From positions 1 through 33,747 of the forward strand of contig VBKW01000206.1 in NCBI GenBank assembly GCA_005879405.1: a DNA stretch of 33,747 nt, read 5' to 3'. A program made the position numbers and the translations under genes. The notes below the pieces were generated by a model that was not told where the DNA came from, ran no database searches, and saw nothing but the letters and a program-made list of their open reading frames with translations. This document shows positions 3,279-18,428 of this stretch, piece by piece. Position 1 is the first letter of the stretch, and the number at the start of each line of letters is the position of its first letter. The stretch comes from Deltaproteobacteria bacterium. GTDB lineage: Bacteria; Desulfobacterota; Binatia; UTPRO1.

Positions 3279-3938
3279 ATGTTCATGCGGACTGCTCTCG
3301 AGACCACATCGACCCTGCACCGCCGCCTGCGTCCACCGCGGCAGGTGCGCAGTCGCGAGAGCCAGGAGCGCGTGCTGAACGCGTTCGCCGCGATGCTCGC
3401 CGAGGAGCCGTTCGAGAAGATCACGATGGCCGATCTCGCGCGGCGCGCGCGCGTCGCGGTGACGTCGATCTACGCACGATTCGAGGACAAGCGCGCCCTC
3501 GTGCTCGCGCTCCACGAGCGCCACTTCGAGGAGACTCTGCGGAACATGGACACGCTCCTCGACCCCGACCGTTGGGAAGGCGCCGATCTCGAGACCGTCG
3601 TCCGCGCCGTCGTCACGAGCATCGTCCGCCGATTGCTGCCGCGCGCGCATCTTTTGCGCGCGGCGCTCCTCGTGAACGACCGCGACGTCGAGACGCGCGT
3701 CGCGGAGCTGATGCGGCACGGCTCGGAGGGGCTCGCCGCGCTCCTCCGTCCTCGCTTGCGCCACCTCCAGCCCCGCGACCGTGATCGCGCCGTCGACTTC
3801 GCGAGTCGTGCCGTCCTCGCCGTCGTCCAGCAGCGTCTGCTGTTCCCGACGGCCGAACCGGGACGATATCGCCTCTCGGACTCCGAGCTGACGCGTCGGC
3901 TCGGCGCCCTCTTTCTCGCAATCCTGCGCAACCCGTGA
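3279..3938 (+). CDS. TetR/AcrR-family transcriptional regulator
   Basis: The 219-residue protein has a classical TetR N-terminal helix-turn-helix (about residues 24-70). It runs from RSRESQERVLNAFAAMLAEE through ITMADLARRARVAVTSIYARFEDKRAL, with the usual Y-x-R/H-F-x-x-K pattern at the recognition helix. The C-terminal ligand domain is divergent, as is normal in the family. A perfect palindrome sits just upstream, so the protein probably represses its own transcript. The stop codon (TGA 3936-3938) lies only 11 bp before the hydrolase start, and that gene's Shine-Dalgarno overlaps the stop, so the two are almost certainly co-transcribed. The regulator may therefore respond to a substrate or product of the hydrolase. 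ATG 3279 and ATG 3285 are both possible starts, and either would leave a very short leader. Confidence 0.88.
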   Translation: MFMRTALETTSTLHRRLRPPRQVRSRESQERVLNAFAAMLAEEPFEKITMADLARRARVAVTSIYARFEDKRALVLALHERHFEETLRNMDTLLDPDRWEGADLETVVRAVVTSIVRRLLPRAHLLRAALLVNDRDVETRVAELMRHGSEGLAALLRPRLRHLQPRDRDRAVDFASRAVLAVVQQRLLFPTAEPGRYRLSDSELTRRLGALFLAILRNP

Positions 3939-3949
3939 AGGAGCCGCTG

Positions 3950-5122
3950 ATGTTCGAGTACTTCGAGAACAATTATCCGTGGAACTTGGCCGTCGTGACG
4001 GCGCTCGGGATGGGCGCCGTCGCCTCCGACGTCGACACCGCGTGCCGGCCGCTGCGTGCCGTCGCGGACGGCGACGTGGGCGTCTCGAGTGCGGCCTGGG
4101 CCGACGCCTGGTCGGCGCTCGCCGAGCGCCTGCGCCGGCAAGCGCGGCACGACGAGGCCGAGCACCACCGCCGCAGCGCCGGCGAGAAGTATCTGCGCGG
4201 CGCGCTGTATTTCTTGATGGCCGAGCGTGCGCTCCGCTGCGCCGATCCGCGCAAGCTCGAGATCTATCGCGAGGCCACCGCGATGTTCGCACGTGGCGTC
4301 GCGCTCCGCGGCGACGCCGCCGAGCGGGTCGAGATCCCATACGCCATGGGAGCACGCGGCGGGGCCATGCCCGCCGTGTTCGTCAAGGCCGCGGGCGACC
4401 GCCCGGCGCCCTGCATCATCCACTTCAACGGCTTCGATTGGCTGAAGGAGTTCAACTATCTCTCGATGGCCGAGGAGTACGCGCGTCGCGGCATCGCCGG
4501 CCTCTTCTGCGACCAACCCGGCAGCGGCGGCGCGCTCCGCCTGCACGGGCTTCCGGCCGAGGTGGAATCCGAGCGATCGGTGGGCGCGTGCATCGACTAC
4601 CTCGCGCGCCGACCCGACGTCGACGCGACGCGGATCGGCATCATGGCGCCGAGCCTCGGGGGATATTACGCGCCGCGCGCCGCCGCATTCGAGAAGCGGC
4701 TTGCGTGCTGCGTTGCGTGGGGCGCGTTCTACGACGCCGGCGAGGTGCTGCAGCTGCGGATGGCGCAAGGCGACCGCTACGCCCGCTCGGTGCCCGACGT
4801 CGAGGACCAGATGCTGTGGGTCACCGGCACCGACTCGCTCGAGGCGGCAATCGCGTTCATGCGCAGGTTCACGTTGAAGGACGTGGCGCAGCACATCACC
4901 TGCCCGCTCCTCGTCGTCCACGGCGGCCGCGACCGGCAGATCCCCGTCGATCACGGCCAGAAGACGTACGACGCCGCCCGCAACAGCCGCGCGCGGAAGC
5001 TCGTCGTCCTGCAGCCCGAGGACGGCGGCGTCGAGCACTGCTCGGTCGACAACTTCCCGCCCGTACGCGACCTCGCGGCCGACTGGATCGCCGACACGCT
5101 CGACGTCCGCGCCCGCGTGTGA
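3950..5122 (+). CDS. alpha/beta hydrolase with N-terminal helical cap
   Basis: This is a serine hydrolase of the alpha/beta fold, resembling the esterase/acylaminoacyl-peptidase-like group that includes 2,6-dihydroxypseudooxynicotine hydrolase and FrsA-like proteins. The nucleophile elbow is APSLGGYYAP. The acid is likely the Asp in HGGRDRQIP and the histidine that in GVEHCSVDN. About 130 residues of helical sequence precede the fold and probably form a lid. HFNGFDWLKEF and FCDQPGSGGALRLHG fit the oxyanion-strand region. ATG 3950 (390 residues) is chosen over GTG 3935 because GAAGGAG (3937-3943) is well placed for it. It is the second gene of the TetR operon. The substrate cannot be deduced. 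Confidence 0.82.
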   Translation: MFEYFENNYPWNLAVVTALGMGAVASDVDTACRPLRAVADGDVGVSSAAWADAWSALAERLRRQARHDEAEHHRRSAGEKYLRGALYFLMAERALRCADPRKLEIYREATAMFARGVALRGDAAERVEIPYAMGARGGAMPAVFVKAAGDRPAPCIIHFNGFDWLKEFNYLSMAEEYARRGIAGLFCDQPGSGGALRLHGLPAEVESERSVGACIDYLARRPDVDATRIGIMAPSLGGYYAPRAAAFEKRLACCVAWGAFYDAGEVLQLRMAQGDRYARSVPDVEDQMLWVTGTDSLEAAIAFMRRFTLKDVAQHITCPLLVVHGGRDRQIPVDHGQKTYDAARNSRARKLVVLQPEDGGVEHCSVDNFPPVRDLAADWIADTLDVRARV

Positions 5123-5169
5123 CGTCTCGCGCAACACGGCGACGAGTCGCGAGCGTTCGACGTTCTGCG

Positions 5170-5307
5170 CGGGCGGCGTCGGGGTGCCGCGCGCTGGCTT
5201 AGTAGACCGCGCGGGTTGGTGGTAGCGCTGTGGCACTTCCGTTCCCGCACCGTTCGCGGTGGCAGGGCGGTCTAATGCGCCTGCGCGCGGCACCCCGACG
5301 CCGCCCG
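5170..5307. repeat. structured intergenic element A (25-bp perfect inverted arms)
   Basis: Positions 5170-5194 and 5283-5307 are perfect reverse complements (25 of 25). Imperfect pairing extends outward to about 5155. Inside, TAGACCGC near 5204 and GCGGTCTA near 5267 pair again, and CACCG-TTCG-CGGTG near 5249 forms a tetraloop hairpin. The 88-bp core is homologous, in opposite orientation, to the core of the element at 5470-5608. No coding sequence is credible here. It could be a non-autonomous repeat, a structured RNA or a DNA cruciform. Confidence 0.75.
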
Positions 5308-5469
5308 GGCCGGACGTAGGGCGTTCGACCCGCGGCGGCGTGCTGTGCACGCGCCGCGAGGGACGCGACGGCGCGTCGTGCGCGCACTGCCGTCGCGCGA
5401 AGCCGGCGTAGTGCACGCCGCGCCGCGATCGCGGCGATCCTGTTGCGGCGTGTTGCGGCGAGCACCGCT
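5308..5469. other. palindrome-rich spacer between elements A and B
   Basis: No gene is visible. The stretch holds a 9-bp inverted repeat (CGCGACGGC at 5364-5372 with GCCGTCGCG at 5389-5397), a perfect 16-bp palindrome CGCCGCGATCGCGGCG (5421-5436), and two exact tandem copies of TGTTGCGGCG (5441-5460). TGTGCACGC and AGTGCACGCCG lie on opposite sides of the centre. Together with A and B the whole 5155-5608 block is roughly symmetric, as if a larger unit had been duplicated in inverted orientation. Confidence 0.5.
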
Positions 5470-5608
5470 CGGCGCGGTGGGGAGCGCCTCCCGGGCGGAC
5501 ATTGGGACGCCCTACCACCTCGAACGGCACGGAAACGGAAGAATCCACAGCGCAACAACTACCCCGCGCGTTCCGTCGTCCGCCCGGGAGGCGTTCCCCA
5601 CCGCGCCG
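5470..5608. repeat. structured intergenic element B (30-bp inverted arms)
   Basis: Positions 5470-5499 and 5579-5608 are reverse complements with one mismatch. The core (5500-5578) aligns with the reverse complement of element A's core, sharing words such as CGAACGG, AACGGAAG, CCACAGCGC and CCCGCGCG. The arms of A and B differ in sequence, yet each pair stays self-complementary. This keeps structure rather than sequence, which is unusual for decaying transposon ends. Confidence 0.75.
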
Positions 5609-5633
5609 CGCGACGTACGCCTCTTCCACGTCG

Positions 5634-5721: not shown

Positions 5722-7008
5722 TCAGCGCCTCCTCCGCGTCCTTGCGCTCCGGCGTGTCGTTCGGCCGTAGGCGCGCGCCAGGTGCCACCATTGTTGGCGC
5801 TCGTCGCCGCTCTTGCCGCGGCACTCGGCGAGCGCGTACTCGGCGTAGTCGAGCTCCGGCTCACGCGCGAGGGCGCTTTCGAGGAGCGCCGCGGCAGACT
5901 TGAGCTCACCGGCCGCGATCATGGTGCGTGCCAGGTCGGCCATGATCGGCGGGTCGTTGGGATAGTCGCGGAGATGGGCCTCGAACGCAGCGCGCGCCTC
6001 TGCGAGTCTGCCGAGGCGGGCGAGCGCGCGGCCTTCGTCACCGCGGGCGCGCGGCGCGCCCGCGGCGGCGGCGCCGGCGAGGAGCGGCGCGGCGCGCTCG
6101 GGCTGCCCGGTCTCGAGAAGGACGAGACCGAGCTGATGTTGCACGTCCGCGTTCTTGGGATCGCGAGCGAGACGCTCCTCGTACGCGGGCACGACTTTTT
6201 CACGCGACCCGACGAGCGCACGCACGGTCGCCTGCGCGGCGGCGAGGTCGGCGTCGCCGCCCGGGCGCGGCCGCGCGCGCGGCATCGCGCGCGCCAGCTG
6301 CTCGAGCTCGGTGATGCGGTCCTCGGTGAGCGGGTGCGAGAGAAAATACGGCGGAACCTGCGTCGGGTTCAGCTGCTGCGTCTTCAGCACCAAACGCAGG
6401 AACCGCGGCATGCCGAGCGGATCGAAGCCGGCGTCGCGCATGAGGCCGATCCCGACGTGATCCGCCTCCGTCTCGTACTGCCGCGCGTACTTGAGCTGCG
6501 CCGCCGCGCCGGCGCTCGCCGCGCCGGCACCGAGCGCCGGATGGACTGCGGAAAGAAAGAGGCCGAGGATCGTCGCGTAATTCAGCAGCGCGGTCTGCTC
6601 CTCTTGGCGCACGACGTGATGCGCGTGCACGTGCACGATCTCGTGCGCCAGGACGCCGGCGAGCTCGGCCTCGTCGGCGACTGCGTCGATCAGCCCGGCA
6701 TGGACGTACACGTAGCCGCCGGGAACGGCGAAGGCGTTCAGCGTCGCCTCGCGCACGACGTAGAACCGATAGTCGAACTCGCGCGCGTCGAGATGCGCGA
6801 TGATCCGCTCGCCGATGCGACGGAGATACGCGCTCAGCATCGGCTCGCGGACGAGCGGCAGGCGCCGGCGTGCCTCGAGAGCGAAGCGGGCGCCGAGCCC
6901 CTGCTCCTCCTTCAGCCCTATCGCGGCGACCACCGGCGCCCAGAGGACGGCGGCCGCGAGCAGCGCCACGGCGGCTCGCGTCCTCGCCGCGCGCCGGGTC
7001 GACGTCAT
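5722..7008 (-). CDS. M48-family metalloprotease with TPR repeats (BepA/YfgC-like), C-terminus frameshifted
   Basis: This resembles BepA/YfgC-type periplasmic proteases that survey outer-membrane protein assembly. The 428-residue protein begins with a signal peptide (about 1-29, [19 protein letters not shown]). The zinc motif HEIVH is at 122-126, with the third ligand probably E181 in YETEADHVG. Downstream are SHPLTEDRI and TPR-like helices (about 290-420: [38 protein letters not shown]). The final residues [12 protein letters not shown] look out of frame: shifting by one base near 5763 gives [20 protein letters not shown], a credible TPR helix ending at TGA 5699-5701. The start overlaps the hemB stop as ATGA, so translation is coupled to hemB. 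A hairpin-T6 terminator follows. Confidence 0.87.
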
Positions 7009-10013: not shown

Positions 10014-10037
10014 CGTCGCCGGCCGCTCATCGACGAG

Positions 10038-10160
10038 CAGGTCGATCAAAAACGACCAGATGCAAGGCGCGAGGGGAGTGAACGCGGAGGCGTAGCGCGA
10101 GCTACGCCGCACAAGTGAACGACCGAGCAACGCAGCAGATGGTCGTTTTTCATCGACCTG
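10038..10160. repeat. 123-bp inverted-repeat element between convergent genes
   Basis: Arms 10038-10063 and 10135-10160 match at 23 of 26 positions and contain AAAAACGACCA / TGGTCGTTTTT. The centre holds a perfect hairpin, GGCGTAGC-GCGA-GCTACGCC (10089-10108). The element separates a plus-strand lipoprotein from a minus-strand protease and even supplies the protease's last codons and stop (TGA 10150-10152). T-runs on both strands after the long stem could make it a bidirectional terminator. I recall similar elements, translated spuriously as 'KNDHLLRCS...', in many deltaproteobacterial genomes. Confidence 0.8.
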
Positions 10161-11127
10161 CGCAGGCGTTCGCCGCCGGGAGGCCAAAGGCGCGGCGCTC
10201 GACGTTCGCCGCGTCGATGACGTCGATGCCGTCGCTGCCGTCGACGTCGCAGCGGCTCGGGACGAGGTCGCAGCCGCTCGAGAGGTCGACGGCGGCTGCG
10301 AGCACTGATGCGAGGTCGCTGAGGGTCACCGTGCCGTTGCCGTCGACGTCGCCGCAGACCGGTGCCGGCGTCGGCGTCGGTTCGGGGTTCACCACGGGGT
10401 AGATCATGGTCGCGCCGGCGAGGTCGTCGGCGGTCGGCGCGCTCACGAAGCACGGATCGCCGTCGGCGAACTTGAAGGCGGAGCGCATCAGCACATTGGC
10501 GTCGCGGCCGCACTGATCCGGATGGTCGAGACCGAGCACGTGCCCGAGCTCGTGCTCGATGACGACGCGGAAGAACGCCGGCGTGAAGAGGTCGTTGAAT
10601 TTCGGATTGAGCACGACGTCGGCATCCTGCTGCTCGCCGCGTTGCGGACCGCTCGTGATCGTGACGCGCAACGTGACCGCGACGACGTTCGAGCCGAACG
10701 ACTGCCCGCCACAGAACTGCGGGCTGCCGCCGATCGAGGTGCGCCCATCCGTGGTGTCGCAGAATGCGACCGGGTGCGCGGCGTCCGCCTCGACGTACCG
10801 AAACCGCCCGCCGAGATCGTCGTTCCACTGCGCGGCGGCTTCGCGGCAATGCTGTACGCACGCGTCCTGCGTGGTCTCGCCGCACGAGGTCTGGTGCGTG
10901 CCGTCGGCGAAGAACCGGCAGTCGAAGACGACCTCAGGCGTTGCCCAGAGCACGAGCGGCGTCGCCGGACACCTGGTGCTCGCGAGCGACAGGAATGCGA
11001 ACGCATCGCCCGGCAGCGCCGGACACTGCGCCGCGGCGGGAGCCGCGCGCCCGACGACGATCGCAAGCGCGAGCGCAATCGTCACGGACGCGCGGCGCAC
11101 CGGCGGCGGAACGCCGACCGCCTGCAT
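10150..11127 (-). CDS. secreted matrixin-type (M10) metalloprotease with dockerin-like C-terminus
   Basis: The 325-residue protein has a signal peptide (about 11-33, RRASVTIALALAIVVGRAAPAAA), then a Cys-rich N-terminal half. The metzincin zinc motif HELGHVLGLDH is at 192-202 (H192, E193, H196, H202), with a likely Met-turn at M214 in NVLMRS. A Pro/Thr linker (EPTPTPAPV) leads to two calcium-loop dockerin-like units (about 257-320, GDVDGNGTVTLSDLASVL and [20 protein letters not shown]). It should be a secreted calcium-dependent protease. Paired cysteines in the N-terminal half suggest disulfides. Its final AGR-stop lies inside the inverted-repeat element, so the native end may have been altered. 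A small secreted-type gene lies 62 bp upstream and is probably co-transcribed. The ATG at 11127 has only a weak Shine-Dalgarno. Confidence 0.85.
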   Translation of the reverse strand: MQAVGVPPPVRRASVTIALALAIVVGRAAPAAAQCPALPGDAFAFLSLASTRCPATPLVLWATPEVVFDCRFFADGTHQTSCGETTQDACVQHCREAAAQWNDDLGGRFRYVEADAAHPVAFCDTTDGRTSIGGSPQFCGGQSFGSNVVAVTLRVTITSGPQRGEQQDADVVLNPKFNDLFTPAFFRVVIEHELGHVLGLDHPDQCGRDANVLMRSAFKFADGDPCFVSAPTADDLAGATMIYPVVNPEPTPTPAPVCGDVDGNGTVTLSDLASVLAAAVDLSSGCDLVPSRCDVDGSDGIDVIDAANVERRAFGLPAANACAGR

Positions 11128-17402: not shown

Positions 17403-17411
17403 GTCGTCTCC

Positions 17412-17576
17412 TAGTGTCCCGTCTCGGAAATTCGTTGCATAAGTCTGCGAGGGATTTTCAGCCCTGCCAAGGCGCGACGACGAAGGAATAGTCTAGACTA
17501 TTTCGAGGAGGAGCAACGCAGGCAGGGCCGAAAAGACCCGCAGAATTATGCAACGAATTTCCGAGACGGGACACTA
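17412..17576. mobile_element. 161-bp hairpin MITE with TA target duplication (IS630-type)
   Basis: The ends are perfect inverted repeats: 17411-17442 and 17546-17577 match at 32 of 32 positions, including outer CTAG. Similarity continues inward along the whole arm to a central perfect palindrome AATAGTCTAGACTATT (17487-17502), so the element is one long hairpin centred at 17494. TA dinucleotides at 17412-17413 and 17575-17576 fit the TA duplication of IS630/Tc1-mariner elements. It has no credible ORF. It sits exactly between the phosphotransferase stop codon and the next gene's ribosome site. Confidence 0.9.
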
Positions 17577-18428
17577 GAGAAACCCGCGGGCTTGGGCGAT
17601 CGCCACGCTCATGTAGGCCCACTGGTGATCGAACAACGCCATGCGCAGGTCGCGGGTCCGGCCCTCGCGAAATGCGTGCAGCCCCGTCAACATGATCGCG
17701 GCCATCTTCACGGTCGCGAGCACCTCGTAGAAGTGCACGCGCGCGCGGTCGACGCGACGGCCGGAGCGCTGCTCGTAGCGCGCGTAGAGCTGCTCGCGCT
17801 CGAGAAGGTGGCACATGTACGGCGACTCGCCGCGCCAGAGGGTCATGCACGCCCAGCCGAGGTCTTCCATCGGGTCGCCGAGGTGCACCATCTCCCAGTC
17901 CACGATCGCCGCGATGCGTCCGCCGTCGACGAGGAAGTTGCCGGTGCGGTAGTCGCCGTGCACGAGCGTGATCTCGTCCGTCGCAGGGAGCCCGCGCCGC
18001 AGCCAGAGGACCGCTTCGGTGAGCAGCGGACGCGGCGGCCCGCCGGCGCGCGCGACGTAGCCTTCCCAGCGCGCGAGCTCACGCGCCGCGGCGCCGGTGC
18101 CCGGTGCGGGAGCGCCGAGGAAGTCGAGGTCGGCGGCGTGCCAATCGACGGCATGCAGCGCGGCCAGGTTCCCGACGAAGTCCTCGCCGAGACGCGCCCT
18201 CGCGTCGTCGTCGAAGACGGGCTTGCCGTCGACCATCACCGGCAACGGCACCGTCCCGCGGACGAGCTCCATCACGTAGAAGGGACGCTCGAAAACCGCG
18301 GGGTCGCGCTCGTACCACAGCACGCGCGGCGCCCGCACCGGTGTCGCGGCGAGCGCGGCGAGGACGCGAAACTCGGGCTCGGTGTCGTAGGGCTCGAGCA
18401 GTCCGGCGGCGGGCTGCCGGCGGAGCAC
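17574..18428 (-). CDS. APH-type phosphotransferase, N-terminal lobe disrupted
   Basis: This is an aminoglycoside phosphotransferase/choline-kinase-fold protein of the type often found near acyl-CoA dehydrogenases. It has the catalytic loop LVHGDYRTGNFLV and the metal-binding motif AIVDWEMVHLGDPMEDLGW. The frame is open only from GTG 18428 (284 residues), starting within VLRRQPAAGLLEPYDTEPEF, which is normally strand 3 of the N-lobe. The expected N-terminus lies in another frame: ATG 18516 gives MIEQLSAWFARRLTPRVDV, and the sense frame resumes at DGREKTASY. The glycine-rich nucleotide loop is missing between them, so about 60 nt appear deleted with a frameshift near 18440-18455. It is either a pseudogene or an assembly error. 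The stop TAG coincides with the MITE edge. Confidence 0.75.
   Translation of the reverse strand: MLRRQPAAGLLEPYDTEPEFRVLAALAATPVRAPRVLWYERDPAVFERPFYVMELVRGTVPLPVMVDGKPVFDDDARARLGEDFVGNLAALHAVDWHAADLDFLGAPAPGTGAAARELARWEGYVARAGGPPRPLLTEAVLWLRRGLPATDEITLVHGDYRTGNFLVDGGRIAAIVDWEMVHLGDPMEDLGWACMTLWRGESPYMCHLLEREQLYARYEQRSGRRVDRARVHFYEVLATVKMAAIMLTGLHAFREGRTRDLRMALFDHQWAYMSVAIAQARGFL

Follow-up and report, generated by a model that had tools for sequence, protein, structure and literature searches.

The window analysed here, a stretch of 33,747 nucleotides, is contig C169 of a fragmented, metagenome-style genome (G000; 4.49 Mb in 468 contigs). It was compared with 148 genomes of the class, among which the genus is represented by two, G000 itself and G001. 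Two large hairpins, A and B, lie between convergent genes: a hydrolase gene (3935-5122, plus strand) on the side of hairpin A, and a gene for an M48 peptidase with TPR repeats (minus strand, ending at 5722) on the side of hairpin B. Genes beside these and all other twin hairpins were called with a simple codon-composition heuristic and Pfam. Hairpin A is built on the plus strand from a G-rich 5' arm (5170-5194) that is complementary at 25/25 positions to a C-rich 3' arm (5283-5307), and the palindrome continues imperfectly over 5129-5348, where complementarity is 77% overall. Its conserved core (5205-5277) overlaps an inner stem, P2, in which TAGACCGC (5203-5210) pairs with GCGGTCTA (5267-5274). 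A spacer (5308-5465) with many small inverted repeats and no long open gene separates A from hairpin B, which faces the other way. On the minus strand, the core of B (5500-5573) is held between an outer arm (5578-5612, the 5' arm in core sense) and a spacer-side arm (5466-5500, the 3' arm), and the motif GGAAGAGG (5620-5627, minus strand) stands 10 to 20 nt outside the hairpin.

An earlier, sequence-only reading of this DNA had placed the two elements at 5170-5307 and 5470-5608, in opposite orientations, with 25/25 and 29/30 complementary arms, and had proposed that their cores are homologous in inverted orientation while their arms differ. Our recount returned the same figure for A, and 33/35 pairs for B over the longer span 5466-5500/5578-5612, in line with that reading. 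The core of A aligns with the reverse complement of B over 74 columns with one gap and about 78% identity; the alignment score of 81 compares with 44 for the best of 2000 dinucleotide-preserving shuffles and with only 16 for the direct orientation. The inner 16 bp of the arms, on the other hand, agree at 41% of positions. The predicted folds of both hairpins are 8-10 standard deviations better than those of shuffled sequences on either strand.

BLAST with the A and B cores found nothing convincing in the window's own genome or the 148 class genomes, and the BLAST and pattern matches that did arise there, in GTDB contigs and in viral contigs were rejected as partial, palindrome-free chance matches. 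A covariance model built from the two cores gave one weak match in G001 (E 0.08), which sits as a 76-nt loop in a perfect 36-bp inverted repeat. At a distance of 274 bp lies a second G001 hairpin with an inverted core and a different pair of arms (37/37), the same layout as that of A and B. Used as a query, the G001 core identified 17 places in G001 and 5 in G000, and a model of 26 copies, the alignment to which the core of A belongs, identified 24 cores in G001 and 8 in G000, A and B included. The check set in advance, further copies with covariation, was passed. The 26-copy model had no match with arms elsewhere among the class genomes, weak matches in G147 and G079 being rejected as armless, and the family is confined to one genus among the 148. 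A pattern derived from the G001 core matched no viral sequence, and the G001 twin had no match in phages or plasmids. A and B are not connectable to the family by BLAST or a DNA pattern; the connection comes from model R3, trained without either of them, which matched B at 34.7 bits (E 5e-4 in 628 kb; runner-up 21.5 bits). A falls below the R3 threshold and is linked to the family through B. The family is small, with tens of copies, and some twins have diverged strongly, the cores of A and B agreeing at only about 70-78%. Together A and B represent a single copy of a family, not listed before, of DNA hairpins that occur in pairs facing opposite ways. This bears out the suggestion of a new family of repeats in which the core is conserved and the arms keep pairing, not sequence.

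The unit of this family is the twin. The sequence-only reading had overlooked A plus B as a unit, but 12 other complete twins share the arrangement, and in all 13 the cores follow each other in the order plus then minus. A and B together make up a single extragenic repeat, each contributing one half of an inverted hairpin pair. The 13 complete twins are all intergenic; their total length is 365-612 bp, of which the spacer takes up 86-312 bp. The cores, whose consensus in core sense is CAGCGGACCTGGCGGGACGCCACATCGTGKGGATYCTTCCGTACGTCG...CACTCGAAGCACGTACGGCCCAATG, have a median length of 76 nt, and each is held in arms usually of 28-54 bp, which become longer in hairpins with an imperfectly continued palindrome, such as A. 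The 5' arms are G-rich (56% G) and the 3' arms C-rich. Just inside the arms lies a 5-bp inner stem, GGACC/GGYCC, whose counterpart in hairpin A is P2 and which is replaced in some copies by AGATC/GATCT, AGGGC/GCCCT, GACCGC/GCGGTC or others. Of 32 hairpins, 11 carry the motif [AG]AAGAG in the 60 nt beyond their outer side, usually at a distance of 10-20 nt (expected 0.43; at most 4 in 2000 shuffles), and none carries it within 60 nt on the inner side. Concerted evolution of twin mates was considered, for which the support is weak (rank 21 of 720 permutations). At L181:7334-7422 (G001:C7), the place expected to hold a twin's second core is taken by a 38/38 perfect palindrome with a 13-nt loop; this hairpin appears to have lost its core yet retained its arms.

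The claim that changes in one arm are matched in the other could not be shown by two copies, but 26 copies do show it. In a MAFFT alignment that was not fitted to structure, 85% of arm and inner-stem cells were paired, compared with 62% after shuffling and at most 50% after sliding; double changes were present in 11 of 12 pairs, and the covariation score was 0.569 versus 0.192. Across the arms, 1128 of 1231 pairs are Watson-Crick. The 103 mismatches include 22 G.T and 26 A.C in core sense and show no strand bias, and from this we read that constraint or homogenisation acts on the DNA and not on an RNA of fixed sense. The orthologous single hairpin of G001:C21 and G000:C137 carries compensatory and half-way changes side by side. 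Replacement of arms en bloc was dropped as an explanation, since related arms align, if loosely, and the C21/C137 pair changes stepwise with compensation.

We favour, with a probability of roughly one half, a reading of the twin as a giant, loop-conserved, REPIN/BIME-like non-autonomous DNA element. Such an element is probably spread in trans by a candidate single-strand (HUH) transposase; its recognition as single-stranded DNA, the enzyme and its mobility are what we infer, whereas the family itself, its twin architecture, the covariation, the lack of strand bias, the intergenic placement and the orthologous and absent sites are observed. Each hairpin comprises a conserved core of ~76 nt in a palindromic stem, the sequence of which is free as long as its two sides match. 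When the region is single-stranded, as on the lagging strand, or is extruded as a cruciform, the arm pairs would fold, so that a protein could read the core together with the outer AAGAG motif and the twin geometry; an HUH-type transposase acting in trans is the likeliest candidate. An enzyme of this kind would account for the dispersed copies, the fixed plus/minus pairing and the presence or absence of the twin at given sites. The arms may stay complementary because pairing is needed, because template switching copies one arm onto the other, or through both. Protein binding to a cruciform, one of the options raised by the sequence-only reading, would fit the A and B elements, as would protein binding to the single strand.

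Several points count against this reading: the family is small and some of its twins are much diverged, no transposase was found to travel with it in the neighbourhoods read, no target-site duplication or clean empty site was demonstrated within the genus, and template switching by itself could account for the perfection of the arms. In that last case the matched arms would be a mutational by-product, as intrastrand template switching would homogenise any palindrome and the covariation would imply no function. The process itself is known (PMC8604942), the mismatches are symmetric between the strands, the seemingly core-less hairpin of L181 still has fully matched arms, and two other palindromic families in this genome, unrelated to the twins and described below, behave likewise. 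Nevertheless, it leaves unexplained the persistence of such long arms, the twin geometry, the core and the outer motif, and as a complete account we regard it as possible but rather doubtful. The two explanations can act together, and template-switch homogenisation probably contributes to the complementarity of the arms in the mobile element that we favour.

Every copy read stands in intergenic DNA, in most cases 2-80 bp from where a gene ends and beside ordinary metabolic genes, and the copies lie between convergent, codirectional and divergent genes alike. A terminator-only role was rejected on the basis of the divergent placements and the lack of a T run. The sites are partly orthologous between the two species and partly present or absent. 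At least two are common to both (C21/C137 and C50/C317). The galE-lepA junction (G001:C15, G000:C304; L073, L253) has a twin in G001, whereas the sister species G000 carries about 2 kb of different sequence there, with an unrelated gene, and G144, which comes from a sister genus, only a 48-bp gap. At the window's M48 locus, the four related genomes readable there have no palindrome. Neither the galE-lepA nor the M48 comparison offers a clean empty site, as the gene on the other side or the genus is not the same, and neither a target-site duplication nor a clean empty site was demonstrated within the genus. These positions could suit a host structural element that spreads little, with the core as a protein site and the cruciform as a platform for gyrase, HU or condensin binding or for blocking transcription. 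The intergenic placement close to ends of metabolic genes and the sites common to both species favour such a role, and REP and BIME sequences are reported to have comparable roles in enterobacteria (PMC2817692). However, placement between divergent genes, presence or absence between relatives and confinement to a single genus of the class speak against it, and we consider this explanation unlikely.

Strong covariation of the arms and inner stem, together with very stable predicted folds, would also be expected of a structured RNA, whether a small RNA, a 3'-UTR element or a dual hairpin, and an undescribed family would escape Rfam. A structured RNA was among the possibilities that the sequence-only reading had raised, and one of fixed sense is not supported. 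The arm mismatches show no preference for G.U on the core strand, and all gene orientations occur. Since the mates are opposite in sense, a read-through transcript would carry one core and one anti-core. Rfam gave no match at the gathering threshold, the best sub-threshold matches being miRNA models far under their cut-offs. We therefore hold an RNA of fixed sense to be improbable.

One locus connects the family with a transposase gene. At G001:C70 (L169:8604-12343), a Zn_Tnp_IS91/Y2_Tnp gene that is interrupted by an IS110-family element lies between two 92%-identical units of 0.77 kb, each with a twin, and the duplication stops exactly where the second hairpin does. By eye, the window's cores most resemble the C70 subfamily. 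That the twins come from an IS91-family rolling-circle transposon, as its ends or as miniature versions of it, is equally improbable and was mostly rejected, because about eight other Y2_Tnp places or fragments of G000 and G001 have no such hairpins nearby in the stretches read, a LysR gene contributes its 3' end to the duplicated unit, which so looks like captured flank, and the twin is symmetric, which the ends of IS91 are not. No transposase travelling with the family was found in the neighbourhoods read, and the E. coli RayT had no match in about 1.3 Mb read, which covers the neighbourhoods of nearly all copies.

Two further palindromic families are present in the same genome. The second family occurs twice in the window, at 10037-10161 and 17411-17577 with outer arms of 22 and 39 bp, and also at L266:14008-14170 and in L078, L290 and L315, which brings the count to six in about 0.84 Mb of genomic sequence. 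Its internal loop, CAAGGCGCGA...GAGCAACGCA, is conserved, while the apical stem and the outer arms, between which the loop lies, are variable; no Rfam family matches it at the gathering threshold. The third family has a conserved centre, GCACCCGTGGTGCGCA-AACYTACCCTC, with a loop of 10-14, and its eight copies in 0.84 Mb (L076:11181-11274, L081:9451-9582, L186:8769-8880, L205:9223-9314, L289:7157-7258, L302:4640-4769, L310:1853-1972 and L313:13385-13536) have long palindromic outer arms (40-71 bp in all), the outer parts of which differ in every copy.

In both of these families the core is fixed while the arms are free and matched, which suggests that the core-plus-free-arms layout is a wider phenomenon. 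Because the twins have free paired stems around a conserved loop domain, BLAST-style repeat finders miss copies of them. It is a tentative and rather unlikely further step to place the twins in a new class of their own among small mobile DNAs, recognised through a conserved hairpin domain of ~76 nt, with a stem that is free in sequence and a putative single-strand transposase as the enzyme; if true, each copy could look different to the host without losing its function, because its stem is free and matches itself. The family provides a natural data set for separating selection on DNA structure from homogenisation by template switching, as well as a starting point for finding a protein of this uncultured lineage that reads hairpin loops.

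Several known systems share features with the twins. Like the ends of IS91-family elements (oriIS and terIS), one twin pair flanks an IS91 gene, and there is precedent in Helitrons for rolling-circle elements that end at hairpins (PMC4778049); unlike those ends, the twin is symmetric and, the Y2_Tnp gene of C70 being the only one of the about eight places or fragments with hairpins beside it, is not associated with the other IS91 genes of these genomes. Like MITEs, the twins are short, non-coding and dispersed, with inverted copies at their two ends, but the inverted repeats are the cores and not the terminal arms, the outermost arms of the two ends being unrelated, each end is itself a hairpin, and no target-site duplication was demonstrated. 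The earlier judgement that A and B do not look like an ordinary MITE is upheld. Palindromes attributed to template switching, such as the long perfect inverted repeats in coding sequence of Nematomorpha mitochondria (PMC6649704), resemble the twins in the length and perfection of their repeats and in their free arm sequence; the twins differ from them in having a conserved core, a twin arrangement and an outer motif. The twins match no Rfam family at the gathering threshold, and they have no wobble-tolerant covariation confined to one strand.

The closest likeness is to REPINs and BIMEs. Published REPs and REPINs are paired in inverted orientation, lie outside genes and show stem changes that compensate each other (PMC3116915, PMC3733652), and the accepted model for them is single-strand recognition by a Y1 HUH transposase (PMC3116915, PMC8266576). 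The twins are likewise extragenic, dispersed palindromes arranged as inverted doublets near gene ends, with a short outer tag and compensatory stems. They depart from that pattern in size, tag and stem conservation, and for this reason we file them as a REPIN/BIME variant. Their units are ~150 bp, about four times larger than the 20-60 nt of REPIN/BIME; they number in the tens where REPIN/BIME copies number in the hundreds; their motif is of the GAAGAG type, no GTAG/CGTC tag being evident in the outer flanks read; and a RAYT match is absent from the ~1.3 Mb read. Most of all, REP, REPIN and ERIC sequences conserve the sequence of the stem, in REPs and REPINs along with the tag, whereas in the twins the stems are free but paired and it is the loop domain that is conserved.
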